A stretch of DNA of 64,000 nt from Sinorhizobium numidicum. Its GTDB lineage: Bacteria; Pseudomonadota; Alphaproteobacteria; Rhizobiales; Rhizobiaceae. How positions within the stretch are numbered: position 1 is the stretch's first letter; each line of letters opens with the position of its first letter. The stretch spans positions 1,610,001 through 1,674,000 of the forward strand of contig NZ_CP120368.1 in NCBI RefSeq assembly GCF_029892045.1, in the 5' to 3' direction. The notes beneath the pieces were generated by a model. The model saw only the letters and a program-made list of their open reading frames with translations. It searched no databases and was not told the DNA's origin. Shown here piece by piece: positions 21,226-62,057 of the stretch. The translations under genes and the position numbers were made by a program.

Positions 21226-21256
21226 GAAACGAAAACGGCGCCCGAAGGCGCCGTCT
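21226..21256 (-). terminator. Rho-independent terminator of DUF1127 gene 1
   Basis: On the minus strand the stem ACGGCGCC-TTCG-GGCGCCGT (21254 to 21235) is followed by TTTTCGTTTC. It lies 27 bp past the stop of the first DUF1127 gene and insulates trmFO. Confidence 0.9.
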
Positions 21257-21282
21257 TGGAAGGTCGATAACGTCCGTTCCGA

Positions 21283-21426
21283 TTAGCGGAAGGAACGGGC
21301 CGCAATGTTGCGGATATCATAGCGGGTGATGCCGATATCATTGAGAGCGTGGTTCGACAGGCTGCCGAGCTCACTAACGGTGCGGCGATAGTTGATCCAG
21401 CTTTTTGCAATACGAATCGGGTTCAT
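21283..21426 (-). CDS. DUF1127 micro-protein 1
   Basis: A 47-residue basic protein of the YjiS/DUF1127 type, with the N-terminal IAKSWINYRRTVSELGSL and the family end ALNDIGITRYDIRNIA. It starts at ATG 21426 behind GAGGAAAAG. Single DUF1127 domains of this size in alphaproteobacteria have been linked to RNA binding, stress responses and phosphate metabolism; the role here is inferred only. A strong terminator follows. A TGC-N3-GCA dyad (21544-21552) lies about 118 bp upstream. Confidence 0.93.
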   Translation of the reverse strand: MNPIRIAKSWINYRRTVSELGSLSNHALNDIGITRYDIRNIAARSFR

Positions 21427-21793
21427 GGTCTTTTCCTCAAGATCGATTAGTCGCGACAGTGATTTGTCTGCGTCGTTGAGGTTCTTATACGCTTGTCTAA
21501 CTAGGACATGGAGTGCAAAGTAGATGCATCTGCTATGCATTTGTGCACTGCATCGCCAAATTCGTGGGCACAAAATCGGCAAGCCCGAAAATGCGCCAGG
21601 CGTTGAGATTTGATTAAAATTGCGAGCTGCTCCGCTAAGCGCATGTATGTCCGCCGTTTTTCACCATTTGGATCGCTGCCTCGTGCGCGCCGAGGAATAA
21701 AGCTGGCGATGCATCTCATCTGATAATCGCCGGTGCGCCGGAAAGCAGTTTCGCAGGTGCGAAGACGCATTGCAGCGGGGAACATTCCGGCAA
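21427..21793. promoter_or_regulatory. Upstream region of DUF1127 gene 1
   Basis: About 365 bp with no supported gene. It contains repeated ATGCAT/TGCA words (21533-21552), including the dyad TGCACTGCA at 21544-21552. The minus-strand promoter of DUF1127 gene 1 must lie here. The open frame 21501-21785 is not coding-like. Confidence 0.45.
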
Positions 21794-21795
21794 AG

Positions 21796-21832
21796 AAAAA
21801 CGCCCACCGGAGGGAATCCGGTAGGCGTTTTC
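21796..21832 (-). terminator. Rho-independent terminator of DUF1127 gene 2
   Basis: Minus-strand hairpin AACGCCTACCGGA / TCCGGTGGGCGTT (about 21829 to 21800, loop around 21811-21816) followed by TTTTC. It lies about 30 bp after the stop of the second DUF1127 gene, showing that the two DUF1127 genes are separate transcription units. Confidence 0.9.
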
Positions 21833-21859
21833 TAGGGTCGCTAATTGCGAAACTTTTAC

Positions 21860-22003
21860 TTACTTGACCGCCTGGCGAGCAACGTAGGGAATGTCGCCAC
21901 GGCCGATGCCGAGGTCATTCAGTTCACGGTCGCTCATGCGGCCGAGTTCGTTGCAGGTCTGACGGTACTTGCGCCAGTTGTTGAAAGAGCGTGCGAGGTT
22001 CAT
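21860..22003 (-). CDS. DUF1127 micro-protein 2
   Basis: A 47-residue protein too short for most gene callers: it begins MNLARSFNNWRKYRQTCNEL and ends DIPYVARQAVK, with the central RELNDLGIGRGDI signature of DUF1127. It starts at ATG 22003 with AGGAAAGGAT just upstream. A paralogue of the neighbouring 47-residue gene (same length, same NDIGI/NDLGI core). It lies directly downstream, on the same strand, of two CCUCCUCCC-loop sRNA genes. Possibly an RNA-binding regulator. Confidence 0.92.
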   Translation of the reverse strand: MNLARSFNNWRKYRQTCNELGRMSDRELNDLGIGRGDIPYVARQAVK

Positions 22004-22232
22004 GATCCTAATCCTTTCCTAGGGTCGTTTGCCAGCGCTTGTCTCTCTTGCTGGCCGTCATCTCATGGTCTGGAATATAATCGATTTGACCGGTAATTAC
22101 AGAGACGATGCTGCATCGCACCCATGCAGTTCCTGCAATCCTCGCCATGGGCGTTAACTCGTCTTTAACCCCTCATTGTCCTCCCCGTCCGGTCACGCCG
22201 GTCGGGGCCGCAAGCAACGGCGGAGGAGGCGC

Positions 22233-22362
22233 AAAAAACAACGCCCGCTGGGGGAGGAGATCCAGCGGGCGTTGCTTGTTCTGATTGGCAACCGGGAGGA
22301 GGAGTGTCGCCAATCCGTATCGGGAGCGCTGGGAGGAGGAGTGCGCTTCCCGATCGATGAAT
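22233..22362 (-). ncRNA. Cuckoo / alpha-r14 family sRNA, copy 1
   Basis: Minus-strand RNA of about 125 nt built of three stem-loops. SL1 (22352-22321) and SL2 (22315-22283) each display the anti-Shine-Dalgarno loop CUCCUCCUCCC. The third (22274-22239) is a strong terminator, stem CAACGCCCGCUGG/CCAGCGGGCGUUG with its own CUCCUCCCCC loop, followed by six U. This three-hairpin plan with repeated CCUCCUCCC loops is the hallmark of the alpha-r14 (cuckoo, NfeR1-like) family of Rhizobiales, which pairs with ribosome-binding sites of ABC-transporter and metabolic mRNAs. A CTATCT -10-like hexamer on the minus strand lies near 22370. Confidence 0.88.
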
Positions 22363-22521
22363 TGAAGATAGGTACAAACCCCTGAATTGTGTAGGGCGTA
22401 TGCTGAATGGCACCTATGCGAAATGTGCATGGCTTTCCAGCCGAAGTGGGGAAAGTGCTTCAATATTGTGCAAATTGGCTCTTCGCGCTGCGGAGCTTGC
22501 CAGATGCCTCAAGAAGCTTGG

Positions 22522-22645
22522 AAAAGAATAACGCCCGCTGGGGGAGGAGATCCAGCGGGCGTCACAAAAGCGATTGGCAACCGGGAGGAGGAGTGTTGCC
22601 AACCATATCGGAACAGCGCTGGGAGGAGGAGTGCGCTACTCCGAA
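22522..22645 (-). ncRNA. Cuckoo / alpha-r14 family sRNA, copy 2
   Basis: Second, tandem copy about 160 bp upstream of the first on the same strand. SL1 (22643-22608) and SL2 (22604-22571) carry the same CUCCUCCUCCC loops, and the terminator (22562-22531, ACGCCCGCUGG/CCAGCGGGCGU) keeps the CUCCUCCCCC loop but has a weaker U tract (UAUUCUUUUCC). Stems differ from copy 1 by compensatory changes while loops are identical, which is what selection on exposed anti-Shine-Dalgarno loops would produce. Confidence 0.87.
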
Positions 22646-22953
22646 TTCCGACGAGCTCAAGCTCGGGTCTTTCCGGACTTCCGGGAGCGGGCGACCAGTC
22701 CCGCCGGCTTCCATTCGGTTCGTCGCCTCCTGTAGCCTTTCGATGGTTTCAATATAGTGGTCTTAAATCGATTTGTGCAGTGCAATATTAACATGGAAGA
22801 TATGCGCGTTACGCAATTCCAAATCCGGCTGCCGGGTGAACGGACAGCCGCCGCTGAAATTCGCGGAGTTGACCGGATTATCCGCGCTAGCTTTCTGTTG
22901 TTTTTTCGGGCCGATCCATGATTTGTTGTGCGGACCGAAAAGTCTGAGTGTCT

Positions 22954-43504: not shown

Positions 43505-44119
43505 GTGAACCCGACCGTTCACATCGTCGATGACGACAAATCGTTCCGCACGGCGGTGGGGCGAATGCTGGAGGCTTCAGGCTTCCACGTCGCGTCCTAT
43601 GCATCGGGGGAAGAGTTACTGGCGCGCCTACCAAGTGGACATGGCTGCATTCTGCTCGACTTGCAGATGCCTGGCCTGTCCGGCTTGGAGCTGCAGGCTC
43701 GTCTTGCCGACCTGGCGCCTCTCCTGCCTATCGTATTCCTGACCGGCCGTGGCGATATCGGGACCACTGTGCGGGCGATGAAGGCCGGCGCCCATGACTT
43801 TCTCGAAAAGCCGGCCTCGAGCGCGGCGTTGCTTGAGGCCGTTGAACGGGCGCTGCAGCTTTGTGAGACGAGACGGCTGGAGCAAGATCGCGTCCAGGCC
43901 TTTCACATGCGCATCGCCAGCCTCACACCGCGGGAATCACAGGTCTTCGACCTGATCGTCCGCGGCAAGCGCAACAAGCAGATCGCCTATGAGCTCAGCA
44001 CATCCGAGCGAACCGTCAAGGCACATCGGCACAACGTCATGGAAAAGCTCGGCGCCCGTTCTCTGGCCGAGGTCGTGTCGATGGCGGAAAGGCTGGGAAG
44101 GCTTGAAAAAACCACATGA
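43505..44119 (+). CDS. Response regulator, FixJ/NarL type (receiver + LuxR HTH)
   Basis: 204 residues from GTG 43505, 5 bp after the kinase stop. Receiver domain with the acidic triad DDD (9-11), phospho-acceptor Asp52 in LLDLQMPG, Thr in FLTGRG and Lys in LEKPAS. C-terminal LuxR-type helix-turn-helix LTPRESQVFDLIVRGKRNKQ then TSERTVKAHRHNVMEKLGA. It should be phosphorylated by the adjacent kinase and activate transcription, likely of the sulfatase cluster downstream. Confidence 0.92.
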   Translation: MNPTVHIVDDDKSFRTAVGRMLEASGFHVASYASGEELLARLPSGHGCILLDLQMPGLSGLELQARLADLAPLLPIVFLTGRGDIGTTVRAMKAGAHDFLEKPASSAALLEAVERALQLCETRRLEQDRVQAFHMRIASLTPRESQVFDLIVRGKRNKQIAYELSTSERTVKAHRHNVMEKLGARSLAEVVSMAERLGRLEKTT

Positions 44120-44242
44120 CTGAAGTGCCAGCCATCCAATCACATCCGTCTTCCCCTAAGGACAATAGGCGACACCGCGATTTTGCCTCCTAATGCCTTT
44201 CGGGCCGTATTCCGCGGCCAGCCGGCTTGGAGAGGCAACACC

Positions 44243-44626
44243 TTGGACAAACGACCACGCACGGTTGCTGTCGTGGAAGACAATCCGAGCATGCGAACAA
44301 GTGTCGAGCGGCTGCTGAACGCACATGGTTTGACGACCGAGGGATACTCGTCGGCCGAAGCCTTCCTCAGCGACCCTAAGGCCACGGAGATTGGCTGCCT
44401 CGTGCTCGACATCCACCTTGACGGCATGTCGGGCATCGAGTTGCGACACCGGCTGAAACCCGCGCATTGCAGGCTCCCAGTCATTTTCATCACGGCAGTC
44501 GACGACGATGCGCTCGAACTGGAGGCACGTAGGGTGGGTTGCGTCGCCTATCTTCGCAAGCCGTTTCCCGCCGCCTCGTTGATTACCGCCATCAATGAGG
44601 CACTCGCGGGGAATGCAACCGATTGA
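44243..44626 (+). CDS. Single-domain response regulator (receiver only)
   Basis: 127-residue stand-alone receiver. TTG 44243 is preferred as start because GGAGAGG lies 7 bp upstream; the longer frame from 44183 has no similarity. Asp13 and neighbours form the acidic pocket, Asp56 in LVLDIHLDG is the phospho-acceptor, Thr in FITAVDDD and Lys in LRKPFP complete the site. No output domain. It probably competes for or buffers phosphate from the kinase two genes upstream, or relays to another partner. Confidence 0.88.
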   Translation: MDKRPRTVAVVEDNPSMRTSVERLLNAHGLTTEGYSSAEAFLSDPKATEIGCLVLDIHLDGMSGIELRHRLKPAHCRLPVIFITAVDDDALELEARRVGCVAYLRKPFPAASLITAINEALAGNATD

Positions 44627-44871
44627 ACGTTGGATCGTCCTTATCATTGCTAGGCTGGTCTACGCGCTTAGGAGGTATCTTCCCCAAAGTACAATAGCGC
44701 CGCGAGCAATACTCCATAGAATTCCCGCTGAAAATCCGGGGCGCCATGAAGGGAGAGCGTCGACAAATCCGCATTCATTGAGGGCGTGTTCCGGCCCAAG
44801 CGGCCCGGACGTCAGAGGGCTTGCCGTCGGCATGTCCGCGCATTCGTTCAAACCAGTCAGGGAGAAGAAAG

Positions 44872-46509
44872 ATGAGCGACAAGCAAGCAAATCCGCGCCA
44901 CCATCCAAGCCGGCGTGACATTCTTCTGGCGGGCGGATCCCTGCTTGCCCTAACGGCACTGGGGCCGATAACCAGCGGGAGTGCGAAAGCGCAAGCACCA
45001 GGTCCCAAGCCGAATATCCTGGTCATCTTCGGCGACGACATCGGCTGGTGGAACACGAGCGCCTACAACCGCGGCCAGATGGGATATCAGACGCCCAATA
45101 TCGATCGCATTGCCGACGAAGGGGCGATCTTCACTGACCTTTACGCCCAACAGTCGTGCACGGCGGGACGCGCCGCGTTCATTACCGGGCAAAGCTGCTT
45201 CCGTACCGGCTTGCTCAAGGTCGGCCTGCCAGGTGCCAAGGAAGGCCTCTCGGACAAGGATCCGACGCTCGCCGAACTGCTCAAGCCGCATGGCTACGCG
45301 ACCGGCCAGTTTGGCAAGAACCATCTGGGCGACCGCAATGAGTTCCTGCCTACGGTTCATGGATTCGATGAGTTCTTCGGCAATCTCTATCACCTCAATG
45401 CCGAGGAAGAGCCGGAAAATCCGGACTACCCGAAGGACCCGCAGTTCCGCGCCAAGTTCGGGCCGCGCGGCGTGCTTAGATGCGTGGCAAGCGACACGGA
45501 TGACCCGACTGAAGACCCGCGCTTTGGCAGGGTAGGCAAGCAGAAAATTGAGGACACCGGACCTCTCGACAAAAGGCGCATGGAGACCGTGGATGCGGAA
45601 TTCCTGGGCGCCGCGATGAATTTCATCGATAAGAACCAGAAGGCCGGAAAGCCGTTTTTCTGCTGGTTCAATGCGACCCGCATGCATATCTACACGCATC
45701 TGAAGCCGGAGTCGCAAGGCAAGACCGGCCTCGGTTTGGTGGCCGACGGGATGACGGAATTCGACGGCATGGTCGGCCAGCTTCTGAAGCAACTGGATGA
45801 CTTGGGCATCGCCGACAACACCATCGTACTGTGGACGACCGACAATGGCGCGGAGCTCTTTTCGTGGCCGGACGGCGGCTCCACGCCGTTTCATGGGGAG
45901 AAGAACACCAACTGGGAAGGCGGCTACCGAGTTCCTGGGGTCATTCGCTGGCCGGGGGTCATCAAGCCCGGCACGGAAATCAACGACATCGTCTCTCACG
46001 AAGACTGGGTGCCGACATTGGTGGCCGCGGCAGGGGAGCCGAACGTCAAGGAGAAGCTGCTGGCGGGCTATGAGGCGGCAGGGAAAACATTCAAGGTCCA
46101 TCTCGACGGGTACAATCAGCGGGAGCTCCTCGCCGGCACTGGGCAAAGTTCGCGCAAGGAATACTTTTATTGGACCGACGACGGCAATCTCGCCGGGCTG
46201 CGCTATGACCGCTGGAAGATCGTGTTTATGGAGCAGCGGGCCGAAGGTCTCGATGTGTGGCAGGACCCGTTGATAACGCTGCGCTTCCCCAAGCTTATAG
46301 ACTTGCGCGCTGATCCTTTCGAGATGGCCCAGCACGTCGCCGGCGACTACGCCAGATGGCGCGTCGAGCATGCCTTTGCGCTCGTACCGGCGCAGGCCTT
46401 TGTGGCCCGGCACCTGCAGACCTACGTCGATTTCCCGCCGCGGCAAAAGCCCGGCAGTTTCGCGCTGAACGAGGTGCTGGCGAAGCTGCAGGAGGCAGGG
46501 AAACACTGA
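44872..46509 (+). CDS. Tat-exported arylsulfatase (type I sulfatase, formylglycine-dependent)
   Basis: 545 residues from ATG 44872 behind GGAGAAGAA. The N-terminus has a twin-arginine signal (SRRDILLAGGSLLALTALG). Metal-binding LVIFGDDIGW (about 50-60), and the active-site Cys96 in CTAGRAAFITG, a C-x-A-x-R sulfatase signature in which Cys is converted to formylglycine. Later DNGAEL and WTTDNG segments supply the remaining ligands. It hydrolyses sulfate esters in the periplasm; the substrate is unknown. The maturation enzyme FGE is encoded in the same cluster at 48199. Oxidation to formylglycine before Tat export of the folded protein is consistent with a cytoplasmic FGE. Confidence 0.93.
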   Translation: MSDKQANPRHHPSRRDILLAGGSLLALTALGPITSGSAKAQAPGPKPNILVIFGDDIGWWNTSAYNRGQMGYQTPNIDRIADEGAIFTDLYAQQSCTAGRAAFITGQSCFRTGLLKVGLPGAKEGLSDKDPTLAELLKPHGYATGQFGKNHLGDRNEFLPTVHGFDEFFGNLYHLNAEEEPENPDYPKDPQFRAKFGPRGVLRCVASDTDDPTEDPRFGRVGKQKIEDTGPLDKRRMETVDAEFLGAAMNFIDKNQKAGKPFFCWFNATRMHIYTHLKPESQGKTGLGLVADGMTEFDGMVGQLLKQLDDLGIADNTIVLWTTDNGAELFSWPDGGSTPFHGEKNTNWEGGYRVPGVIRWPGVIKPGTEINDIVSHEDWVPTLVAAAGEPNVKEKLLAGYEAAGKTFKVHLDGYNQRELLAGTGQSSRKEYFYWTDDGNLAGLRYDRWKIVFMEQRAEGLDVWQDPLITLRFPKLIDLRADPFEMAQHVAGDYARWRVEHAFALVPAQAFVARHLQTYVDFPPRQKPGSFALNEVLAKLQEAGKH

Positions 46510-46586
46510 TTGTTTTCTGAAATCATTCCAAGGTCGCGCCAGGCAGGCAGCGGGCGCGACCTCCAGGGCGAACGGGAGGCAGACTC

Positions 46587-47141
46587 ATGACGGAAGCCCA
46601 TTCGACTGCGACGATTGCCCAGCGGGCGAAGCGCGAGCTGAAGGAATATGCCCTCCTATCCGCGTATCTGTATGTCTGCTTCGGCGCGCTCGTCCTCTAC
46701 AAGATGGCGATACTTGGCAGTCAGGGGGTGCATTTCTCTGCATTCGGCGTCCCGGTTATCAAGGCGCTGATCCTGGGGAAGTTCATTCTTCTCGGGCACG
46801 CAGTCAAATTGGGTGAACGATATGGACGGCTGCGGCTCGTTTCCGTCATCGCCTACAAAGCAGTGCTCTACCTTCTTCTGCTCATCGTTCTTTCCATCAT
46901 TGAGGAAGCGATCATCGGGCTCAGCAACGGCAGAACGATCGCCGTCACACTCGCGGAAATTGGAGGCGGCAAGCTGCCCGAGATGCTCGCGACGAGCGTG
47001 ATCATGCTGCTCATACTGATCCCCTATCTGGCTTCGAGGGAATTCGCCGTTGCACTTGGCGAAGGCCGGCTCTGGGACCTGCTGTTCGAGTATCGCGACG
47101 GCCTTCATCACGACGGATCGGCAAATATCGCGAAGGAGTGA
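46587..47141 (+). CDS. Small polytopic membrane protein
   Basis: 184 residues with about four hydrophobic helices (near 28-45, 52-72, 84-104, 132-152). N-terminal cytoplasmic amphipathic part TIAQRAKRELKEYALLSAY. No family recognised. ATG 46587 follows GGGAGGCAG. Between the sulfatase (78 bp) and the HAD gene on the same strand; its position suggests a membrane partner for the sulfatase pathway. Confidence 0.72.
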   Translation: MTEAHSTATIAQRAKRELKEYALLSAYLYVCFGALVLYKMAILGSQGVHFSAFGVPVIKALILGKFILLGHAVKLGERYGRLRLVSVIAYKAVLYLLLLIVLSIIEEAIIGLSNGRTIAVTLAEIGGGKLPEMLATSVIMLLILIPYLASREFAVALGEGRLWDLLFEYRDGLHHDGSANIAKE

Positions 47142-47190
47142 CGTCACCCCATGGCATGCCTGCCGCTGACAACCGTAAGGAGATCAGGCC

Positions 47191-48189
47191 ATGACCTATT
47201 TCATTCGTGTTGCAAAGAGCTACCTGTTGCCCATCATTCTGCTGGTATTCGCTTCATCTGCCCAAGGCGCAGATGCGCTTCCCTCCTGGAATGAAGGCAG
47301 GGCCAAGCAGTCGATAGTCTCGTTCGTCGAGCGCGTGACCGCTCAAGGTTCGGCGGATTTCGTACCTGTCCCGGAGCGTATCGCCGTCTTTGACAATGAT
47401 GGCACCTTGTGGGCCGAGCAGCCGATGTACTTTCAGCTCCTGTTCGCACTTCACCGTGTGAAGGTGCTCGCCCCTCAACATCCCGAATGGGCCTCGCAGG
47501 AGCCGTTTGCCTCGCTGCTGAAGGGTGACCTGAAGGGGGCGCTCTCAGGCGGCGGAACGGCAATCATGCAGATCGTAATGGCCACTCATTCGGGCATGAC
47601 CACCGAGGAGTTTGAACAGATCGTCCGCGACTGGACTGCCAGCGCCAAGCATCCGAAAACCGGGCAGCTCTACACGAAGATGGTCTACCAGCCGATGCTG
47701 GAGGTGCTGGCCTACCTGCGCGCCAACGGTTTCAAGACTTACATCGTCTCTGGTGGCGGGATCGATTTCATGCGCGTTTTCAGCGAAGAAGTTTATGGCA
47801 TTCCACCCGAGCAGGTGATCGGCAGCAGCGGCAAGACCAAGTTCGAAATGCGCGACGGAACGCCCTTGCTGATGCGGCTGGCCGAAGTCAACTTCATCGA
47901 CGACAAGGCTGGCAAGCCGGTAGGCATCCACCAGCACATCGGCCGTAGACCGATAGCGGCGTTCGGCAATTCCGACGGCGATCTTCAGATGCTGCAATGG
48001 ACGTGCAGGCCTCCCGGCCCACGATTTTGCCTTTTCGTCCGTCACACCGACGGGGACCGAGAATGGGCTTATGACAGGGCCTCGTCGATCGGCCGGCTGG
48101 ACAAAGGCCTGGACGAAGCCGGGATCATGAACTGGACGGTTGTCGACATGAAGACCGACTGGAGAAAGGTGTTCGCGTTCGAACCGTGA
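47191..48189 (+). CDS. Exported HAD-superfamily phosphatase
   Basis: 332 residues. Signal peptide (1-26, ends ASSAQGA). HAD motif I IAVFDNDGTLW (nucleophile Asp, DxDGT form), motif II TYIVSGGGIDF, a conserved Lys further on (SGKTKFEM) and motif IV FGNSDGDLQML. Related to serine/phosphoserine-phosphatase-like HAD proteins that act in the periplasm. It stops 9 bp before FGE, so they are probably co-transcribed. The substrate cannot be named; desulfation and dephosphorylation of the same sulfo/phospho-compound is possible. Confidence 0.9.
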   Translation: MTYFIRVAKSYLLPIILLVFASSAQGADALPSWNEGRAKQSIVSFVERVTAQGSADFVPVPERIAVFDNDGTLWAEQPMYFQLLFALHRVKVLAPQHPEWASQEPFASLLKGDLKGALSGGGTAIMQIVMATHSGMTTEEFEQIVRDWTASAKHPKTGQLYTKMVYQPMLEVLAYLRANGFKTYIVSGGGIDFMRVFSEEVYGIPPEQVIGSSGKTKFEMRDGTPLLMRLAEVNFIDDKAGKPVGIHQHIGRRPIAAFGNSDGDLQMLQWTCRPPGPRFCLFVRHTDGDREWAYDRASSIGRLDKGLDEAGIMNWTVVDMKTDWRKVFAFEP

Positions 48190-48198
48190 TCTCGGGAC

Positions 48199-49221
48199 AT
48201 GGCCCGAACCCTGCATGGAACGAGGAAACGAAAGGTCATGTCAAAGCTTGCCGAACTAAGCCGCGCAGATGCTTCATCGAGACCCTCCATCGACCGAGCG
48301 ATGGTGTGGATTCCCGGCGGCACATTCCTCATGGGATCGGACAGGCACTATCCCGAAGAGGCGCCGGCACACAAGGTGGCGGTGACTGGCTTCTGGATCG
48401 ACGTCTGTCCGGTCACCAATCGCGATTTTGCGGCATTCGTCGAGGCGACCGGCTATGTCACCGTGGCTGAGCGGCCCGTCGATCCCGCAGATTATCCGGG
48501 TGCGAAGCCGGATATGCTGCTGCCGTCCTCCGTGGTGTTCAGCAGGACCAAGGCGCGTGTCGATCTCCGCAATCACTACAACTGGTGGGCCTACGTCAGA
48601 GGCGCGAACTGGCGGCATCCTTATGGACCAGCAAGCTCGATCAAGCGCCTGCAGGATCATCCGGTGGTCCATGTGGCCTACGAGGATGCGGAAACCTATG
48701 CCACCTGGGCGAAAAAGGAGCTGCCCACCGAGGCCGAGTGGGAGTTTGCGGCGCGCGGCGGGCTCGAAGCGGCAGACTATGTCTGGGGTGATGAACTGAC
48801 ACCCGGTGGCAGGCAGATGGCCAACACCTGGCAGGGCGAATTCCCCTGGCAGAACCTCCGCGAAGACGGCTACGAGAGAACCTCGCCTGTCGCCGCCTTT
48901 CCAGCGAATGGCTACGGCCTTTTCGACATGGCTGGCAATGTCTGGGAGTGGACCTCCGACTGGTATCAGGAACATGGCAGGATCGACAGCCCGTGCTGCA
49001 CGATCTCCAACCCGAAGGGCGCGGACCAAGCCGACAGCCTCGATCCGCTCCAACCGCACATTAGAATCCCGCGAAAGGTCATGAAAGGCGGCTCACATCT
49101 TTGCGCCCCGAACTATTGCCGGCGCTACCGTCCGGCGGCCCGGATGGCGCAGCCCGTCGACACTTCGACGTGCCATGTGGGGTTCCGCTGCATTTCGCGC
49201 GATCCGACTAGAGATGTTTGA
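48199..49221 (+). CDS. Formylglycine-generating enzyme (SUMF1 family)
   Basis: Copper-dependent oxidase that converts the sulfatase active-site Cys to formylglycine. 340 residues from ATG 48199; ATG 48238 is an alternative that drops 13 basic residues. Begins MVWIPGGTFLMGSDRHYPEE, with CPVTNRDFAAF, LPTEAEWEFAARGG and the C-terminal GNVWEWTSDWY and KGGSHLCAPNYCRRYRPAAR. Both catalytic cysteines are present, Cys302 and Cys307, spaced as in human SUMF1 (336/341). No signal peptide, so it acts in the cytoplasm. The sulfatase of this cluster is the obvious client. Confidence 0.95.
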   Translation: MARTLHGTRKRKVMSKLAELSRADASSRPSIDRAMVWIPGGTFLMGSDRHYPEEAPAHKVAVTGFWIDVCPVTNRDFAAFVEATGYVTVAERPVDPADYPGAKPDMLLPSSVVFSRTKARVDLRNHYNWWAYVRGANWRHPYGPASSIKRLQDHPVVHVAYEDAETYATWAKKELPTEAEWEFAARGGLEAADYVWGDELTPGGRQMANTWQGEFPWQNLREDGYERTSPVAAFPANGYGLFDMAGNVWEWTSDWYQEHGRIDSPCCTISNPKGADQADSLDPLQPHIRIPRKVMKGGSHLCAPNYCRRYRPAARMAQPVDTSTCHVGFRCISRDPTRDV

Positions 49222-49382
49222 TGGCAAGCGACTTCGCACCAGTGACCGCTTTTGTAGCATGCGAGTCCGGCTCGAACTGACGCTGCTGTGTCCGTTTACC
49301 ACCACCCTTAGCGGCAGCTTCGGATTATCAGGACAGAGGACCGCTTCGAGGCCAAATTGCGCCGTAGGGCGAGCAAGGCCAG

Positions 49383-49722
49383 GATCAGCTTGATCTTCAG
49401 GCCTGCCATCGTGTTCGGTCGCGACTGGTCTCCCGGCGCACGGCGACGATCAATCAGATCCGCGCCTTCCTCATTGAGCAGGGCATTGCCGTCAGGCCGG
49501 GTGCAAGGGCACTGCGCAATTCGCTGTTCGCGATATTGAAGAACCGTGAGGACGAGCTCTCGCCCCGGATGCACGATCTGATTGTCGGTCTCTACGAGGA
49601 CTGGCTCTGGCTCGACGAGCGCATCGAGACTGTCAGCCGAGAGATCGAGGAGATCAGCCAGAACGAGGCCAATTGCCGGCGCCTGATGAGCGTTCCCTGC
49701 GTCGGCCCACTGATCTCGACGG
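49383..49722 (+). pseudogene. IS110-family transposase fragment
   Basis: Open frame reads RLVSRRTATINQIRAFLIEQ and GARALRNSLFAILKNREDEL, then LSPRMHDLIVGLYEDWLWL and ANCRRLMSVPCVGPLIST. This is the middle of an IS110-type transposase (coiled-coil to the start of the C-terminal transposase domain). No start codon region, no DEDD N-terminal domain and no C-terminal Ser domain remain, so it is an inactive scar between the FGE cluster and the ROK gene. Confidence 0.8.
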
Positions 49723-49782
49723 GCGAGGGAGTGGACTCTATTGCTCGTTGGACGCAAAGCAACCATGCGAGATGAACGAAAC

Positions 49783-50937
49783 TCAACCGCTGGGCAGGCG
49801 CTCGAAGTCAAATATGCCTTGTGTTGCCAAGGCTGCGGCGCCTCTCGCCCAGGAACTGGGCACCCAGTCCGTCTGTATCTCGGGCTTGGAGAAAAACAGA
49901 AACTGGTCCATTGATCGCTTGAGCGGGTCGAGGAGGGCGTCGCCGAACTGGACGGCTTCGCCTCCGACGACGATCACTTCGGGATCGAACAGGTTGACCA
50001 GGTCCGCCAGGTGTCTGCCGATGCGCGATCCCGCGTTCTCCAGGATCTCCAAGGCGTCTTCGTCGCCGGCGGCGGCGGAAGCGACGAAGTCGTCTCTTGT
50101 AGGTTCGACGCCTCTCCTGCGTCCCCATTCGGCAATCATGTATGGCTCGGCGGCGTGTGCCATGAGGCATCCGCGCCGGCCGCATTCGCAGAGTTCCCCG
50201 TCGGGCACGGAGGTGATGTGCCCGAGCTTGCCGGCCGCGCTGTTGCTTCCGTGGTAGATATCGCCATTCAGCACCAGAGAGCAGCCGATCCCGGCGCCGA
50301 TCGCAAGGGCCGCGAAATTGCGGTGGTTGCGGCCGGCGCCGAACAGCTTTTGCGCGATCGCGAAGGCGTTGACGTCGTCGTCTATCCAGACGGGGGCATG
50401 CACTCGCTCCGCCAGCATTTCCGCGAAGGGAAGATCACGCCAGCCAAAGCGCGGGCTCTGGAGACAGACGCCGTTCCTCGGGTCCACCTCGCCGGGGATG
50501 GATACGCCGATCCCCATGATGTCCTTCTCGTCACGCGCGGCCCCCGCCAGAAGGCGCGGAATGGCGCCCCGGATTGCCTCGATCATGCCCTCCGGACTGG
50601 TATCGCCAACGGTCGCCTGCAATGTGGAAAGGGGCGAAGTGGCGAGGTCGGTGAGCACGCAGTCGATGCTGCTGCGGTTGAGCTTGAAGCCCAATGCCAG
50701 GTGGGCCTCGTAGTTGATATCCATCGGTATGGGCCGGCGACCGTTCGAGCTCGCGACCGCCTCCCGTTCCACCACCAACGCCTCATCCATCAGTTCTGTG
50801 ACGACGAACGTGACGGCTGCAGGGCTGAGACCCGTCACCGAGGCGAGTTCGGCTCTCGATACGGGTCCGCGGTTGCGCAGCAGATTCAAGATCAGCCGCC
50901 TGTTCAGCGCGCGCGACGTGCTCGCATTCCCTTTCAA
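49783..50937 (-). CDS. ROK-family transcriptional regulator (NagC/XylR type)
   Basis: 384 residues. N-terminal winged helix-turn-helix (ALNRRLILNLLRNRGPVSRA then LASVTGLSPAAVTFVVTEL), then an ROK sugar-kinase-like domain with a DDVNAFAIAQKLFGAG segment, GIGCSLVLNGDIYHG and the zinc-type GELCECGRRGCL motif. Divergent from the ABC-transporter and beta-galactosidase genes, with a dyad in the shared intergenic region, so it is very likely their local repressor, released by a sugar or sugar phosphate. Confidence 0.92.
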   Translation of the reverse strand: MKGNASTSRALNRRLILNLLRNRGPVSRAELASVTGLSPAAVTFVVTELMDEALVVEREAVASSNGRRPIPMDINYEAHLALGFKLNRSSIDCVLTDLATSPLSTLQATVGDTSPEGMIEAIRGAIPRLLAGAARDEKDIMGIGVSIPGEVDPRNGVCLQSPRFGWRDLPFAEMLAERVHAPVWIDDDVNAFAIAQKLFGAGRNHRNFAALAIGAGIGCSLVLNGDIYHGSNSAAGKLGHITSVPDGELCECGRRGCLMAHAAEPYMIAEWGRRRGVEPTRDDFVASAAAGDEDALEILENAGSRIGRHLADLVNLFDPEVIVVGGEAVQFGDALLDPLKRSMDQFLFFSKPEIQTDWVPSSWARGAAALATQGIFDFERLPSG

Positions 50938-50953
50938 CGCTGCGTCTCCTAGT

Positions 50954-50976
50954 TAGTTTATTTCTTAAATTAACTA
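50954..50976. promoter_or_regulatory. Candidate ROK operator, inverted repeat
   Basis: TAGTTTATTT (50954-50963), spacer CTT, AAATTAACTA (50967-50976): nine of ten positions pair. AT-rich in a GC-rich region, 17 bp upstream of the ROK start (minus strand) and 166 bp upstream of the binding-protein start. It fits a shared auto-regulatory operator of the ROK protein. Confidence 0.65.
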
Positions 50977-51141
50977 TTGTTCCTGATCCGAAGTTAGGCT
51001 AGCTTTTCTCCGTTGGCAATGAGGAGGAGTGTGCGGAGCGCCAATTTCCCGAACTCCGCATGATCGCAAAATTTCTTTTTCCAAGAGGCCTGGGCGCTGC
51101 TCGCCCGGGCGTGGCGGAGCTTTGTCCTGGGAGAATATGGA

Positions 51142-52422
51142 ATGGCATCCAACGATATCATCAAGCTGGTCACTCGCGCCCCGGCGTCGCGTCGCCAGTT
51201 CCTCATCGGCGCGGGGACAGCGCTTGCGGGAATGACGCTCGGCGCTCCGGCCATCGCGCAGAGCAAGGAACTGACGATCATCTCCAACATTGGCAACGCC
51301 TCGCAGCGCGAGGTGCTCCAGCGGATCGCGAGCGCCTACGCGCAGGAGAGCGGCGTCAAGGTGGCCATCAACAACATGGATCACGAGGCGCACAAGACCG
51401 CCATCCGCAGCTATCTCGTCGTGGGTGCGCCGGACATCTGCTTCTGGTTTTCGGGCAACCGCATGAAGACCTTCGTCAAGCGCGACCTTTTCGACGACAT
51501 CTCCGATCTGTTCGAGCGCGAGAACTACAACAACGTGCTCGGCCCCGCGGCGGGCGCAGTCACAGTTGACGGAAGGCATTACGGCCTTCCGCTTGGCGGT
51601 CTCCTCTGGGGTCTCTTCTACCGCAAGGACGTCTTCGAGGACAAAGGCTGGGCGCCGCCCAAGACGATTGAAGGCCTGCTTGCGCTCGGCGAGCAGGCCA
51701 AGTCGGCCGGTATGATCCCCGTCAGCATGGGAACGAAGGAGATGTGGCCAGCGGCCGGTTGGTTCGACCACATGAACCTGCGCATCAACGGCCTCGACAA
51801 GCATATGGCGCTGATGGACGGTAAGATGTCCTACACCGACCCCGCAATGCTTCCGGTCTTCGACAAGTGGGCAGAACTGATCAATGCCGGGCTGTTCAGC
51901 CCGAACGGAACGTCCTTCGGCTGGGAACAGGCAGCGGCCGCGCTTGCCCAGAAGAAGGCCGCCATGATGGATCTCGCAGGCTTCATCAAATACGGCTTCC
52001 CGGAAGACCAGCAGGACCAGATCGCATTCGCCCCATTCCCCGAGATCATCCAGGGCATGTCGCGTTACGAGGATTTCGCGCTTAATTCGATCCACGTTCC
52101 GAAGAACGCCAAGAACAAGGAAAACGCGCGCGATTTCCTTGCTTTCTTCTACAAGCCCGAGAATCTCTCCGCTTTCCTTGAGACGGAGAGTGCGGTTCCG
52201 CCGCGCAATGACTGCCCGCCGAGCAAGGACCCGCTCGTCAATGCGGCGGTCGAGTCCCTGAAGACCGTCGAAGGCTCCGCGCAATACTACGACCGCGACA
52301 CCGACCCCGACATGGCGCAAGAAGGCCTGAAGGGCTTCCAGGAGTTCATGGCCAAGCCTGACCGGCGCGACCAGATCCTCGAGCGCCTCGAAACGACGCG
52401 CAAGCGCATCTTCAAGGCCTGA
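51142..52422 (+). CDS. ABC transporter sugar-binding protein (family 1, Tat-type signal)
   Basis: 426 residues. N-terminus has SRRQFLIGAGTALAGMTLG, a twin-arginine signal ending near APAIAQ, then a family 1 extracellular solute-binding protein (begins ELTIISNIGNASQREVL). Several aromatic residues (GLLWGLFYRKDVF, WFDHMNL) line a likely sugar site. First gene of a complete importer with two permeases and an ATPase, followed by beta-galactosidase, so a galactoside is the probable ligand. Under ROK control by position. Confidence 0.9.
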   Translation: MASNDIIKLVTRAPASRRQFLIGAGTALAGMTLGAPAIAQSKELTIISNIGNASQREVLQRIASAYAQESGVKVAINNMDHEAHKTAIRSYLVVGAPDICFWFSGNRMKTFVKRDLFDDISDLFERENYNNVLGPAAGAVTVDGRHYGLPLGGLLWGLFYRKDVFEDKGWAPPKTIEGLLALGEQAKSAGMIPVSMGTKEMWPAAGWFDHMNLRINGLDKHMALMDGKMSYTDPAMLPVFDKWAELINAGLFSPNGTSFGWEQAAAALAQKKAAMMDLAGFIKYGFPEDQQDQIAFAPFPEIIQGMSRYEDFALNSIHVPKNAKNKENARDFLAFFYKPENLSAFLETESAVPPRNDCPPSKDPLVNAAVESLKTVEGSAQYYDRDTDPDMAQEGLKGFQEFMAKPDRRDQILERLETTRKRIFKA

Positions 52423-52549
52423 GCCTCGCGCGGCCGCTCTCCTCTCCCAAGAGCAGACCGCAACAGGGCAGGGCCGCAGCACAGACCTGTGGTCCTGCCT
52501 GCTTCCGGTCAGTGAGGCCAGCTTTCGAAGCCTTCGTGAGTGATCTTAA

Positions 52550-53434
52550 ATGTCTACCTTCTGGCGAAACCATCGGCATTGGATAGCCCCGACCCTGTTC
52601 ATCATGCCCGGAGCTTTGCTGTTTGGGGTCGTGATCATCTTGGCGTCCGCGGAGACCATCTGGGTGTCCTTCTTCGACTGGGACGGCGTCGGAGCAAAAC
52701 AATGGGTGGGGCTGGCGAACTATGCGCAGTTGCTGGACGATCCGCAGTTCCACGTGTCGCTGAAGAACAACCTGATCTGGCTTGCCATGTTCATGCTTGC
52801 GCCGCCGCTGGGCCTGGCGCTGGCGCTGCTGCTCAATCAACCGATTCGCGGCATGCGGGTCATGAAGTCGCTGTTCTTCGTGCCCCTGGTGCTGGCGTCT
52901 ATCACCGTCGGCGTCGTCTTTACTTGGGTCTATGATCCCACCTTCGGCCTGCTGTCGCTCATCTTCAGCTATTTCGGCGCGACGGCCCCGGCGCTGCTTT
53001 CGGATGAGCATCTCGTCACCTTCGCAGTCGTCGTGGCGGCGCTCTGGCCGCAGGTCGCCTTTTGCCTCGTGCTCTTCCTGGCGGGCCTGAACAACTTGAG
53101 CGAAGACCTCATCGGGGCGGGACGGGTCGATGGTGCGCGCGGATGGCCCATGCTGATACACGTGATCCTGCCGCAACTGCGCGAAGTCAGCTTCATTGCG
53201 CTCGCGGTAACGGTCATTGGCGCATTGCGGTCCTTCGACATGGTGGCGGTGATGACGTCCGGCGGCCCCTTCGGCTCTTCGACGGTCCTCGCCTACCAAA
53301 TGTACGAGCAATCGATCTTCTCCTACCGGTTCGGTTACGGAGCCGCGATTGCCACCGTGCTCTTCGTGATCATGGCGGTCTTCATCGCCTGGTATCTGCG
53401 CACCCTTCTCAAGCCTGAACGGGAGGGCGTCTGA
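52550..53434 (+). CDS. Sugar ABC transporter permease 1 (MalF/UgpA type)
   Basis: 294 residues, six membrane helices. The permease EAA loop is DLIGAGRVDGARGWPMLIHV followed by ILPQLREV, which docks on the ATPase. First hydrophobic segment WIAPTLFIMPGALLFGVVII. It ends in TGATG overlapping the next permease start by one base, so both are translated together. 127 bp downstream of the binding protein. Confidence 0.92.
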   Translation: MSTFWRNHRHWIAPTLFIMPGALLFGVVIILASAETIWVSFFDWDGVGAKQWVGLANYAQLLDDPQFHVSLKNNLIWLAMFMLAPPLGLALALLLNQPIRGMRVMKSLFFVPLVLASITVGVVFTWVYDPTFGLLSLIFSYFGATAPALLSDEHLVTFAVVVAALWPQVAFCLVLFLAGLNNLSEDLIGAGRVDGARGWPMLIHVILPQLREVSFIALAVTVIGALRSFDMVAVMTSGGPFGSSTVLAYQMYEQSIFSYRFGYGAAIATVLFVIMAVFIAWYLRTLLKPEREGV

Positions 53435-54285
53435 TGTATCCAAGGCCCATAGCTGAAGACGCTCCCGTCCGGCGGTTTGCATATGCGTCGATGGTCGTGC
53501 TGATCCTCGCTCTCTGGCTCGTGCCGCTGATGGCGGTCATGGCGACGTCGCTCAGGTCGTTCGAGGAGGTGATGGCGGGCAATTATTGGGGTTGGCCGAA
53601 GAGCTTCAACTTCATCGAAAATTACATGGCGGTCTTCACGCAGACCGCCATGGCGCGATACTTTCTCAACAGCCTGATCGTGACGCTGCCCTCCGTCGTC
53701 GGCGTGCTCGTCCTGTCGACGCTCACCGGCTATGTCCTCTCGCGATACCGTTTCCGCGGCGCGAACCTGATGTTCGCGCTGTTCGTTGGCGGCAACTTCC
53801 TGCCGGCGCAGATCATGATGATCCCGGTCCGCGACCTCATGGTCTCGATCGGGCTCTACGACACCTACTACGCGCTGATCGTCTTTCACATCGCCTTCCA
53901 GACCGGTTTCGCGACGCTTTTCATGCGCAACTTTATAGCGGCACTGCCGGACGAACTGTTCCAGGCGGCCCGAGCGGAAGGTGCTTCGCCGTGGCAGACG
54001 CTGTGGCATGTGGTGCTTCCGTTGATCCGGCCCGCCCTCGCGGCGCTTGCGATCCTGACATTCACCTTCGTCTGGAACGACTATTTCTGGGCGATCGTGC
54101 TGACCCAGAGCGACGCGGTGAAGCCGGTGACCGCGGGGCTGAACAATCTTCGCGGCGAATGGGTGTCCGCATGGAATCTGGTGGCCGCGGCAACGATCCT
54201 GGTCGCGATCCCGCCGGTCGTGATGTTCTTCCTCATGCAGCGCCACTTCATCGCCGGCCTGACGGTCGGTGCGGTTAAGGGTTGA
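53434..54285 (+). CDS. Sugar ABC transporter permease 2 (MalG/UgpE type)
   Basis: 283 residues with six helices. The coupling loop is ELFQAARAEGASPWQTLWHV followed by VLPLIRPALAAL. N-terminal cytoplasmic part is short. It pairs with permease 1 to form the heterodimeric channel. Start overlaps the stop of permease 1; ATPase 24 bp downstream. Confidence 0.92.
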   Translation: MYPRPIAEDAPVRRFAYASMVVLILALWLVPLMAVMATSLRSFEEVMAGNYWGWPKSFNFIENYMAVFTQTAMARYFLNSLIVTLPSVVGVLVLSTLTGYVLSRYRFRGANLMFALFVGGNFLPAQIMMIPVRDLMVSIGLYDTYYALIVFHIAFQTGFATLFMRNFIAALPDELFQAARAEGASPWQTLWHVVLPLIRPALAALAILTFTFVWNDYFWAIVLTQSDAVKPVTAGLNNLRGEWVSAWNLVAAATILVAIPPVVMFFLMQRHFIAGLTVGAVKG

Positions 54286-54309
54286 GGCGTAACTCAAGGA
54301 ATCCTTCAC

Positions 54310-55446
54310 ATGACGAGCGTTGAACTGATCGACATCGAGAAACACTATGGCGGCTTCCATGCCCTGAAGGACGTCAACCTGACCATCGCGGAAGGCGAGT
54401 TCGTGGTCATGGTCGGCCCGTCCGGCTGCGGAAAGTCGACGCTGCTGAAGACGATCGCGGGTCTTGAGACCACGAGCGCTGGAACGCTCCTCATCAAGGG
54501 GCGGGACGTCACCAGGCTCGAGCCCGGCGACCGCGGTATCGCGATGGTGTTCCAGTCCTATGCGCTTTATCCGCACATGACCGTCGCCGAAAACATGGGG
54601 TTTGGCCTCAGGATGGCGAAGCGGCCAAAGGCGGAGATCGACACGGCTGTCGCGAGGGCCGCGAGGGTTCTCAGGCTCGAGGAGCAGCTCGAAAAGAAGC
54701 CGAAGCAGCTGTCGGGCGGCCAGCGGCAGCGCGTCGCCATCGGGCGGGCGATCACACGGTCGCCCGACGTCTTCCTCTTCGATGAACCGCTGTCGAACCT
54801 GGATGCGGCATTGCGAACGCAGATGCGGGTCGAGCTTTCGACACTTCACGCCGAGCTCGGATCGACCATGATCTACGTCACGCACGACCAGGTCGAGGCC
54901 ATGACGATGGCGAACCGGATCGTCGTCTTGAACCGGGGCAGGATCGAACAGGTCGGAGCGCCGCTCGATCTCTATAACAACCCCGACAACATGTTCGTCG
55001 CCGGCTTTCTCGGCGCGCCCCGCATGAACTTCGTGGCCGGCCAGGTCACCGAAGTCAGCGGATCCTCTGCGAGGGTCGTCTGCGCCGGCGGCCTGAAGGT
55101 GGCGTTTGAGGCTCTCGTTGGAAAGGTGAGCGTAGGTGAGACCGTCACCCTGGGCATCCGGCCGGAAAGGCTGCGGCTCGATGATGCGGCAGCGCAGATC
55201 CGCTTCGCGGGAAGCGTCAGGCTGACCGAATATCTTGGCCGCGAGACGATTGTCTATGCCGATGCGGGGCGACTGGTCACCACCGGATCTGACAGCGGCA
55301 CCAATGTCTTCACCGTGCAGATCGCCGATATCAGGCCCTTCCACAACGGCAGCGCGGTGTCGCTCGGCTTCGATCCCGCCGACGCTTACCTCTTCGCCGC
55401 TGACGGCACAACCATCACGCCTCGCAAGGCCGTCGCGAAAATCTAA
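54310..55446 (+). CDS. Sugar ABC transporter ATP-binding protein (MalK/UgpC type)
   Basis: 378 residues. Walker A GPSGCGKST, signature LSGGQRQRVAIGRA, Walker B FLFDEPLSNLD, H-loop VTHDQVEAMTMA, and a C-terminal OB/TOBE regulatory domain (from about 240). Powers the importer encoded upstream. Begins 24 bp after permease 2 and ends 14 bp before the GH42 gene, so one operon. Confidence 0.93.
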   Translation: MTSVELIDIEKHYGGFHALKDVNLTIAEGEFVVMVGPSGCGKSTLLKTIAGLETTSAGTLLIKGRDVTRLEPGDRGIAMVFQSYALYPHMTVAENMGFGLRMAKRPKAEIDTAVARAARVLRLEEQLEKKPKQLSGGQRQRVAIGRAITRSPDVFLFDEPLSNLDAALRTQMRVELSTLHAELGSTMIYVTHDQVEAMTMANRIVVLNRGRIEQVGAPLDLYNNPDNMFVAGFLGAPRMNFVAGQVTEVSGSSARVVCAGGLKVAFEALVGKVSVGETVTLGIRPERLRLDDAAAQIRFAGSVRLTEYLGRETIVYADAGRLVTTGSDSGTNVFTVQIADIRPFHNGSAVSLGFDPADAYLFAADGTTITPRKAVAKI

Positions 55447-55460
55447 GCAAGGACAAAATC

Positions 55461-57593: not shown

Positions 57594-57631
57594 AGAGACT
57601 CGGCTTGCGGCAGAGTCCGCGTGCGGTCGAC

Positions 57632-57967
57632 ATGTCCGGTATTTGGGCTCCAAGTGCGCTCAACGTCGGCCTTCGCCGCGCCGACTGGGTGGTCGAGGCG
57701 CTGCGCTCAACATCCGTGTCGCTCGCTTTCGCCGCACGTGGCATCTTTGACGGTCACCTCCAGAAGATCACGACCATGTGGGACATCGCCGGCGGCGCGG
57801 TACTCGCCCGCGAGGCAGGTCTCCAGGTCCGTATCGGCACCCGTGATGGATCGGGGACTCCGTGGATCGCGGCCGGAACGGCCTCCCTAATGGCGGTGAC
57901 GGAAAGCCTCTGGCCGAAGATCCGCCCCGGTAAAGACGACGCGGTTGCGGCGACGGCCGCTGAGTAG
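57632..57967 (+). pseudogene. Inositol-monophosphatase family C-terminal fragment
   Basis: Open frame carries RSTSVSLAFAARGIFDG then MWDIAGGAVLAREAG, the second half of the inositol-phosphatase fold with the metal-binding WD motif, and the end GTASLMAVTESLW. The first half with the DPLDGT site is missing. It begins directly after the beta-galactosidase stop, so it is a truncated remnant, possibly of a histidinol or sugar phosphatase. Confidence 0.7.
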
Positions 57968-58139
57968 CTCTGACGTTTTTCAAATCTCAGTCGAGCCTCT
58001 CTCGTTGCGCTCTACCGCGGGCTCTCGACGGTTTACGCCGGCAGCGACCGACGATGTGCATCCGGTCTAACGGAGGTTCGGGTCGAACCTGACCTGTCCT
58101 CTCGGAGTAGAAGACAAGTGTGACTCAAGCACCATTACG

Positions 58140-58435
58140 ATTGGCGCGGCGAGGCGGCTCGCTAGGACTGTGTGCTATGGAAAAGCTTCCGGCCTGCGAA
58201 GCGGAAGATTCCGCGTAGCAGCGATCCGTTCGATATCGCGCCACATGTATGCACCCTTGAGAGGATAGACGTTGAACGGGGACGTGGACAGGCCCCGAGC
58301 CGCGAACATCGGCCCCAGCAGAAAGGGCCGCGATTCCAGCTTCCGTCCTCGGGCGGCGCCTGTCTCGTCGGCACGCATTGCGGCCAGGTAGGAGCAACTG
58401 GAGGTTAACTCGTACCAAAACTCAATCGTGTCCAT
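58140..58435 (-). pseudogene. 2-hydroxychromene-2-carboxylate isomerase fragment (nonsense mutation)
   Basis: Minus strand ATG 58435 begins DTIEFWYELTSSCSYLAAM, the start of DsbA-fold chromene-carboxylate isomerases, with RPFLLGPMFAARGLSTSPFN and KGAYMWRDIERIAA. After RRPEAFP an in-frame TAG (58177-58175) occurs, and similarity continues for a few residues (HTVLASRLA) before ending. Original gene would have about 200 residues; roughly half is lost. Confidence 0.8.
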
Positions 58436-58466
58436 CGCTCTCTTCGGCTGCGTGATTTAAGTCCCG

Positions 58467-59390: not shown

Positions 59391-59472
59391 GCTGACTATG
59401 TACCTCATGCATTGGACGCATGGGAAGCTCTGCTCCTATTCTCGCGCGGGCGAATTTGAGACGGAGGAAGTC

Positions 59473-61717: not shown

Positions 61718-61760
61718 GGCCAACTCCGTCGTTTCAAGTTCGTGGCAAATGTCGATCTCG

Positions 61761-62057
61761 TCAGGGCTTTGAGCTCTGTTGCGGAGGCAACTCCTCCGGG
61801 CGGATCACCGGTGTTTTTCCCTCGTTCGGCGCCGGCTCGACAATTTCACTATCGCCGATCGCAGGCGGCTCTAGGACTCCGTTGCATTCATCGAGCTTGT
61901 CCGCGTAGGATTTCTGATCGCCATCTACGCCCGGGTCGACGCGGCAGCGACCATTCTCAACACCTTCGGCCTGCTGAGACAGACCTGGCGACGCATTCAA
62001 GGCCGTAAGGGCCAGCACCAACGCCGCAACAGATTTTCCAGCTAGTGTACGCCTCAT
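61761..62057 (-). CDS. Small exported hypothetical protein
   Basis: 98 residues with a signal peptide (1-27, KSVAALVLALTALNASPGLS then QQAEG). The mature protein contains two cysteines (GRCRVDP and DECNGVL, probably a disulfide), is acidic and ends in a Pro-rich tail PPQQSSKP. A second reading could be a periplasmic partner of the neighbouring dehydrogenase, 44 bp downstream on the same strand. No family recognised. Confidence 0.72.
   Translation of the reverse strand: MRRTLAGKSVAALVLALTALNASPGLSQQAEGVENGRCRVDPGVDGDQKSYADKLDECNGVLEPPAIGDSEIVEPAPNEGKTPVIRPEELPPQQSSKP

Follow-up and report, generated by a model that had tools for sequence, protein, structure and literature searches.

Two ar14 sRNAs and two DUF1127 genes in Sinorhizobium numidicum: a candidate form of the CIN1 locus with a shared LsrB-type element

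Two sRNA genes and two DUF1127 genes on one strand

We analyzed a 64,000-nt stretch of Sinorhizobium numidicum DNA (hereafter the window), part of a 3.77-Mb contig in a 6.72-Mb genome. Two sRNA genes of the ar14 family are followed on the minus strand by two DUF1127 genes, in the order sRNA1, sRNA2, D1, D2. The genes and the elements assigned to them are as follows (positions are those of the window):

22526..22649, minus strand: sRNA1, ar14 family, anti-Shine-Dalgarno loops (RF02344, 118.1 bits)
22236..22358, minus strand: sRNA2, ar14 family, by sequence the orthologue of S. meliloti NfeR1 (RF02344, 106.2 bits)
21860..22003, minus strand: D1, DUF1127 gene, open reading frame of 47 aa (PF06568, 61.1 bits)
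21283..21426, minus strand: D2, DUF1127 gene, 47 aa (PF06568, 53.8 bits; ATG start as in relatives)
21796..21832, minus strand: terminator-like hairpin of D1 (fold z -6.6)
21232..21257, minus strand: terminator-like hairpin of D2 (fold z -3.9; 2/200 shuffles as stable)
22752..22757, minus strand: -10-like hexamer CTATAT of sRNA1 (conserved among 16 aligned sequences)
22366..22371, minus strand: -10-like hexamer CTATCT of sRNA2
22074..22080, minus strand: -10-like TTATATT of D1 (alignment with relatives)
21485..21490, minus strand: -10-like GTATAA of D2 (alignment with relatives)
22793..22815, minus strand: LsrB/VtlR-type element upstream of sRNA1 (departs from the printed box at one base, TT for TG)
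22407..22429, minus strand: LsrB/VtlR-type element upstream of sRNA2 (matches the printed box exactly; an LsrB site is published for NfeR1)
22115..22137, minus strand: LsrB/VtlR-type element upstream of D1 (matches the printed box exactly; conserved in relatives)
21537..21549, plus strand: 13-nt box match before D2 in opposite orientation, a weak candidate
22456..22472, minus strand: NtrC-type site TGC-N11-GCA upstream of sRNA2 (about -114 to -98 relative to the RNA start; printed position -116 to -101)

The ar14 and PF06568 matches and the open reading frames bear out a preliminary description of this DNA, which had recognized two sRNA genes followed on the same strand by two DUF1127 genes of 47 residues. 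Both RNAs exceed the RF02344 gathering score of 58.8 bits, and each folds into three hairpins with a stability that none of 200 shuffles equaled (sRNA1: z -6.7; sRNA2: z -8.3, fold of 22232-22358). Three hairpins per RNA were described previously, together with identical anti-Shine-Dalgarno loops; the hairpins are all present, but the exact loop CCUCCUCCC occurs only in hairpins 1 and 2 of either RNA, and the loop of hairpin 3 is UCUCCUCCC, one base off. The frame of D2 would span 99 aa if counted from an upstream TTG, and we chose the ATG that matches relatives. A terminator for each unit, also proposed earlier, agrees with the terminator-like hairpins after D1 and D2 and with the third hairpins of sRNA1 and sRNA2, which are terminator-like and close each RNA. 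The stretch first delimited, 21283..22645, is correct at the D2 end; at the other end the cluster extends to 22649, and to 22815 if its control elements are included. When the window is aligned with 15 relatives, conserved short blocks lie 5′ of all four units.

The start of sRNA1 predicted from its -10-like hexamer lies ~95 nt 5′ of the ar14 model. A 50-aa open frame (22562-22714, minus strand) with AGGAGG 5′ of it overlaps sRNA1; a coding role for this frame is doubtful because the leader is poorly conserved.

By its sequence, sRNA2 is the orthologue of NfeR1 (Smr14C2, alpha-r14), the characterized S. meliloti member of the family, which has six copies in that genome. The LsrB form TGCA-N6-GCAT occurs at 22429-22416, ~-71 to -58 of the sRNA2 start (printed, -72 to -57). 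The corresponding locus of S. meliloti 4H41 likewise has two sRNAs followed by two DUF1127 genes, with the same LsrB form before the second sRNA. The two RNAs thus agree in family, in LsrB- and NtrC-type sites and in neighbors, and differ in the third loop, which in sRNA2 is UCUCCUCCC instead of CCUCCUCCC. In published work on S. meliloti, LsrB activates NfeR1, NtrC represses it and ntrBC is a target, and its loops block Shine-Dalgarno sequences in the mRNAs of transporters and ntrBC. Action on ribosome-binding sites, previously suggested for the whole system, is therefore already on record for its sRNA half. RNAs with three or four hairpins and CCUCCUCCC loops were suggested to form one family in PMC3927594, which compares them to the Rhodobacter RNA RS0680a.

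Linkage of ar14 sRNAs and DUF1127 genes

We compared co-location within 2 kb with chance, as the preliminary description had proposed, using the best 150 ar14 matches and the best 150 DUF1127 matches in 61 same-family genomes representing 60 genera. An ar14 match is present in 60/61 of these genomes and a DUF1127 match in 59/61. Among the 150 ar14 matches listed, 90 have a listed DUF1127 gene no more than 2 kb away (expected: 0.39), and 89 of these 90, from 50 genomes, are co-oriented with the nearest such gene among the matches listed. The proposed partnership is thus real and enriched in this family. Among the same listed matches, an ar14 sRNA lies within 2 kb of 67/84 DUF1127 genes scoring at least 52 bits, 14/25 scoring 46 to 52 bits and 4/41 scoring less than 46 bits; linkage falls with the DUF1127 score, so that the linked genes belong mostly to a short, high-scoring subgroup.

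Relative to Rhodobacter, gene order had been called reversed. This is true of the window, but it is one arrangement among several: of 61 linked loci among the matches listed, 47 have the DUF1127 gene first and 14 the sRNA first. A DUF1127 gene followed by a single sRNA, with nothing further, accounts for 29 of the 61. Writing r for an sRNA and D for a DUF1127 gene, the order of the window, rrDD, was found five times and rDD four times, and rDrDD, rDrD, DrDD and DrD once each. A genome of ~2.0 Mb (G005) has neither ar14 nor DUF1127, and another of ~1.5 Mb (G044) has one weak ar14 match and DUF1127 absent, which hints at joint loss.

Outside this family, the linkage is shared with the family of G082, in line with the claimed recurrence between distant alphaproteobacteria. 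That family is inferred to be Rhodobacteraceae-like because in G082 four two-motif RNAs come after a DUF1127 gene. The motif pair is present in 42 of the family's 51 genomes, and among the matches listed a co-oriented DUF1127 gene lies no more than 600 nt upstream in 30 of the 34 genomes with a motif cluster, or at 31/47 clusters; for G197, G204, G209 and G214, no such gene was found among those matches. For this count, matches were picked by hand, the first place of each cluster being taken, and genomes without a listed pattern match were omitted. Conservation throughout the class, in contrast, was too wide a claim. Across 115 genomes sampled from different families of the class, DUF1127 is present in 44 and the strict motif pair in 18, and only in two, G000 and G082, do they lie near each other among the matches listed, which were compared by eye; with one genome per family, the sample cannot prove absence from a family.

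Elsewhere in the class, L186 (genome G088), from another family, has a weak two-motif cluster that precedes a DUF1127 gene by ~550 nt. In each of two Rhodobacteraceae-like genomes, a single DUF1127 gene is followed by at least 13 tandem anti-Shine-Dalgarno motif pairs (G192:C1:1142112-1142632 and G180:C38:282136-282743).

An LsrB/VtlR-type element upstream of three genes

The LsrB/VtlR consensus GCAT-N3-TG-N3-T was taken from PMC8844928 and fixed before loci were counted. This 13-nt box lies at ~-61 to -49 of sRNA2 and D1 (exact) and of sRNA1 (one mismatch), the starts of sRNA1 and D1 being predicted from their -10-like hexamers. The spacing from GCAT to the -10-like hexamer is 48, 48 and 47 nt for sRNA1, sRNA2 and D1, respectively, and in all three forward elements TGC stands exactly 10 nt ahead of GCAT. 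From this window we therefore read off a 23-nt composite, TGC-N7-GCAT-N3-TK-N3-T (TG in the strict form), which is fitted on this locus.

The 13-nt box is not rare (10 in the window against 6.9 expected), and we rejected it as proof when taken alone. The composite occurs three times in the window, each time at this cluster (0.27 expected; at least three in 1/100 shuffles), and 29 times genome-wide (reversed-pattern control: 5). One match, G000:C2:1930907-1930929, has its GCAT 61 nt upstream of an ar15/AbcR sRNA (ar15 copies at G000:C2 1930978 and 1931181); the printed consensus derives partly from the AbcR1 promoter, so that only the TGC part of this match is independent of it. No exact box was found upstream of the four other ar14 copies of the genome, and no composite within 10 kb of these or of its four other DUF1127 genes. 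A search for AbcR within the window gave no Rfam match of any kind in 40000-64000 (E up to 1), and a scan by eye recognized no LsrB among the open frames of 44000-64000. Two composite elements of the genome, G000:C1:106393-106415 and C1:2261959-2261981, are identical and are followed by the same sequence for ~40 bases further downstream.

We read 109 loci, 80 named and 29 from the class search; at L190, L193 and L201 the profile did not find a DUF1127 gene. Among the 80 named loci, the exact box precedes D1 following an sRNA in 47/54 cases (200 permuted motifs: mean 1.25, none reaching this count), later sRNAs in 30/33 (permuted mean 0.72, 0/200 reaching) and DUF1127 genes without an sRNA in 11/16 (permuted mean 0.41, 0/200 reaching). 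It precedes 12/55 first sRNAs, a count reached by none of 200 permuted motifs, and 4/10 DUF1127 genes that precede an sRNA, a count reached by 5/200. In the opposite orientation it stands before D2 in 30/53, which 3/200 permuted motifs equaled or exceeded. Background stretches contain the 13-nt box in 15/480 cases. The loci are related, so these counts are not independent.

The strict composite occurs in 0/1120 control windows (mostly coding). Among the 80 named loci it precedes the first DUF1127 gene in 61, always forward, and it precedes 25/33 later sRNAs. First sRNAs have it in 9/33 cases, and in 26/33 if T or G is allowed, 8 of these 26 being in opposite orientation and one coming from a locus with a DUF1127 gene in front; the figures for single sRNAs are 1/22 and 10/22. 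No composite was found before D2 (0/53). In the 61-genome set, TGC stands at its place in the composite in 29 of 32 forward boxes.

The box also distinguishes classes of DUF1127 genes within the family. It precedes 24/49 genes co-transcribed with an sRNA and 23/45 of the remaining DUF1127 genes in the loci fetched, which are mostly linked (the 45 include a few genes not near an sRNA, such as that of L079); none of 200 permuted motifs does as well in either group. All 40 unlinked family genes that were fetched entered the comparison, and 4 of them have it (3/200 permuted motifs reach this count). The box therefore accompanies the linked subgroup whichever gene comes first, although the exact form is missing from about half of the family's linked DUF1127 genes. 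In three Rhodobacteraceae-like loci that we checked, it was absent from two and present in one; LsrB is confined to Rhizobiales according to PMC11975290.

Three Agrobacterium loci (L143, L149 and L167) retain a DUF1127 pair with an LsrB-type box and have no adjoining sRNA with at least two CTCCTCC motifs.

Proposed shared control of RNAs and micro-proteins

The locus type is already known. DUF1127 genes with CcsR-like RNAs are labeled the CIN1 locus in PMC10253847, with credit to Reinkensmeier and Giegerich (2015), and the window has short DUF1127 genes beside cuckoo RNAs, that is, multi-hairpin RNAs with CCUCCUCCC loops. It differs from CIN1, as described in PMC10253847, in its apparently separate units, in having the sRNAs ahead of the proteins and in its LsrB-type elements. 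In the ccaF1-CcsR1-4 operon of Rhodobacter sphaeroides, a DUF1127 protein gene and anti-Shine-Dalgarno RNAs likewise share one locus; there, the DUF1127 gene comes first and is co-transcribed with the RNAs from one RpoH promoter (PMC10253847), whereas in the window the sRNAs come first, and the -10-like hexamers and terminator-like hairpins suggest separate transcripts with LsrB-type elements.

VtlR, the orthologue of LsrB, is reported to bind the promoter of Agrobacterium atu1667, a small-protein gene related to Brucella ones, and to control three Brucella DUF1127 genes. D1 similarly has the printed box at a conserved distance, and it is likely the counterpart of atu1667, judging by 80% identity to the gene in Agrobacterium locus L143 rather than by comparison with atu1667 directly. 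In contrast to D1, which adjoins sRNAs, atu1667 and the Brucella genes are not tied to a neighboring cuckoo RNA in the parts of the published accounts available. Relatives of the protein bind PhoR in Agrobacterium (PMC12501420), where a S. meliloti DUF1127 protein and CcaF1 can replace the resident ones in phosphate control; PMC12501420 calls the replacement of PhoR-binding proteins by the RNA-binding CcaF1 an "intriguing puzzle." Six DUF1127 genes are among the 30 genes most raised by tetracycline in S. meliloti, one of them via a translation-sensing upstream reading frame (PMC12218461).

We propose, with a probability of roughly 0.6, that the locus is a Sinorhizobium/Ensifer form of CIN1 in which NfeR1, a second ar14 sRNA and two DUF1127 genes are separate units under shared LsrB control, with no CcaF1-type operon. 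There would be four transcription units, each with its own -10-like hexamer and terminator. LsrB (VtlR), a LysR-type regulator, would sense the redox state and most likely switch on sRNA1, NfeR1 and D1 jointly; the elements are seen and binding is predicted from them, such action being published for NfeR1 and for DUF1127 relatives and extended here to sRNA1 and D1. NtrC, whose site is present and whose repression is published in S. meliloti, would hold NfeR1 down, overriding LsrB when nitrogen is plentiful. As published for NfeR1, the sRNA loops would cover the Shine-Dalgarno sequences of uptake/transporter and nitrogen (ntrBC) mRNAs, and the DUF1127 proteins may act in parallel on phosphate and carbon signaling, for example by binding PhoR as in Agrobacterium. 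The tie between RNA and protein would then be shared control, and direct contact would be unnecessary. D2 probably belongs to the same LsrB regulon, a weakly supported assignment given its reversed 13-nt box and the 0/53 composites before D2 genes. Shared LsrB-type wiring of such a locus was not found in the literature we searched, which gives its parts separately; further papers may say more.

This proposal joins two threads, the LsrB/NtrC-controlled NfeR1 and the PhoR-binding DUF1127 micro-proteins, in one predicted redox-controlled module. A shared switch-like element before three of the four genes suggests that the genes stay together as a co-controlled module for stress and nutrition, and a standard symbiont offers a defined locus at which to ask whether DUF1127 proteins work for RNAs or for kinases.

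One alternative, to which we assign perhaps a one-in-four standing, is that the DUF1127 proteins act in trans as cofactors in the manner of CcaF1, binding the ar14 sRNAs or their targets and steering processing or stability. CcaF1 of R. sphaeroides binds RNA and promotes CcsR maturation (PMC10253847), DUF1127 proteins are arginine-rich (PMC12501420), and the linkage is kept in every gene order seen and, among the matches listed, in the Rhodobacteraceae-like family. However, the sRNAs of the window apparently have their own starts and terminators, so that there would be no co-transcript to cut; the Agrobacterium proteins work via PhoR and RNA binding was not found for Salmonella YjiS, according to PMC12501420; and L143, L149 and L167 keep the DUF1127 gene and the box beside no recognizable adjoining sRNA.

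Somewhat more speculatively, an operon may have become a regulon: an ancestral DUF1127-sRNA transcript would have been divided in the Sinorhizobium lineage, with the LsrB element kept or copied before the pieces and with RNA and micro-protein remaining one device in trans; messages with an RNA tail would escape that RNA through weak ribosome-binding sites, a constraint lost after the split.

A plain neighborhood produced by ancestral duplications, in which the tie is one of position only, seems improbable. Tandem copies and variable order (rrDD, rDrDD, DrDD) do fit local duplication and loss; against this, 89/90 near pairs in 50 genomes are co-stranded among the matches listed, and control elements have been retained before several units though spacer bases vary.

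Equally improbable is feedback, in which the sRNA loops pair with the ribosome-binding sites of D1 and D2 and silence the DUF1127 mRNAs: loop pairing (D1: -6.8 kcal/mol; D2: -7.4 kcal/mol) is possible but ordinary in strength, near the median for 37 unlinked DUF1127 genes (-7.4 under the best-start rule), and it is weak (median -3.9) where DUF1127 and sRNA share a transcript.

Weak ribosome-binding sites in co-transcribed DUF1127 genes would be a lead only. Under the best-start rule, which favors strong sites if several starts exist, the median loop pairing is -3.9 kcal/mol for 49 DUF1127 genes sharing a transcript with an sRNA vs. -7.4 kcal/mol for 37 unlinked genes of the same genomes (P = 3e-5, ignoring relatedness). 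The 37 come from the 40 unlinked genes after omission of L236, L240 and L241, whose genomes have no co-transcribed pair by the rule. Compared genome by genome, pairing of the co-transcribed gene is weaker in 19/25 pairs and stronger in 6/25 (P = 0.008), and pairing with 16S RNA differs less (-5.9 co-transcribed vs. -6.8 unlinked, P = 0.02). With the nearest-start rule, neither difference is significant (loop: -3.9 vs. -4.2, P = 0.08; 16S: P = 0.74).

The D1 hairpin of the window contains CCCTCC and resembles hairpin 3 of ar14. We considered the D1 terminator as the relic of a lost sRNA and rejected this because it lacks support in most relatives: of the 54 named loci with D1 after an sRNA, three (L121, L159 and L161) have CTCCTCC in the 150 nt that follow the D1 stop. 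Weaker motifs (CC, C or T, TCC) occur in 29 more of the 54 and are thus too common to weigh. In L020 (genome G029), however, a single clear hairpin with a CUCCUCCC loop, perhaps the remnant of an sRNA, separates the stop of the first DUF1127 gene (D1) from its terminator, and L022 has a hairpin with a CCCUCC loop after D1, so that an sRNA may have been lost between D1 and D2.
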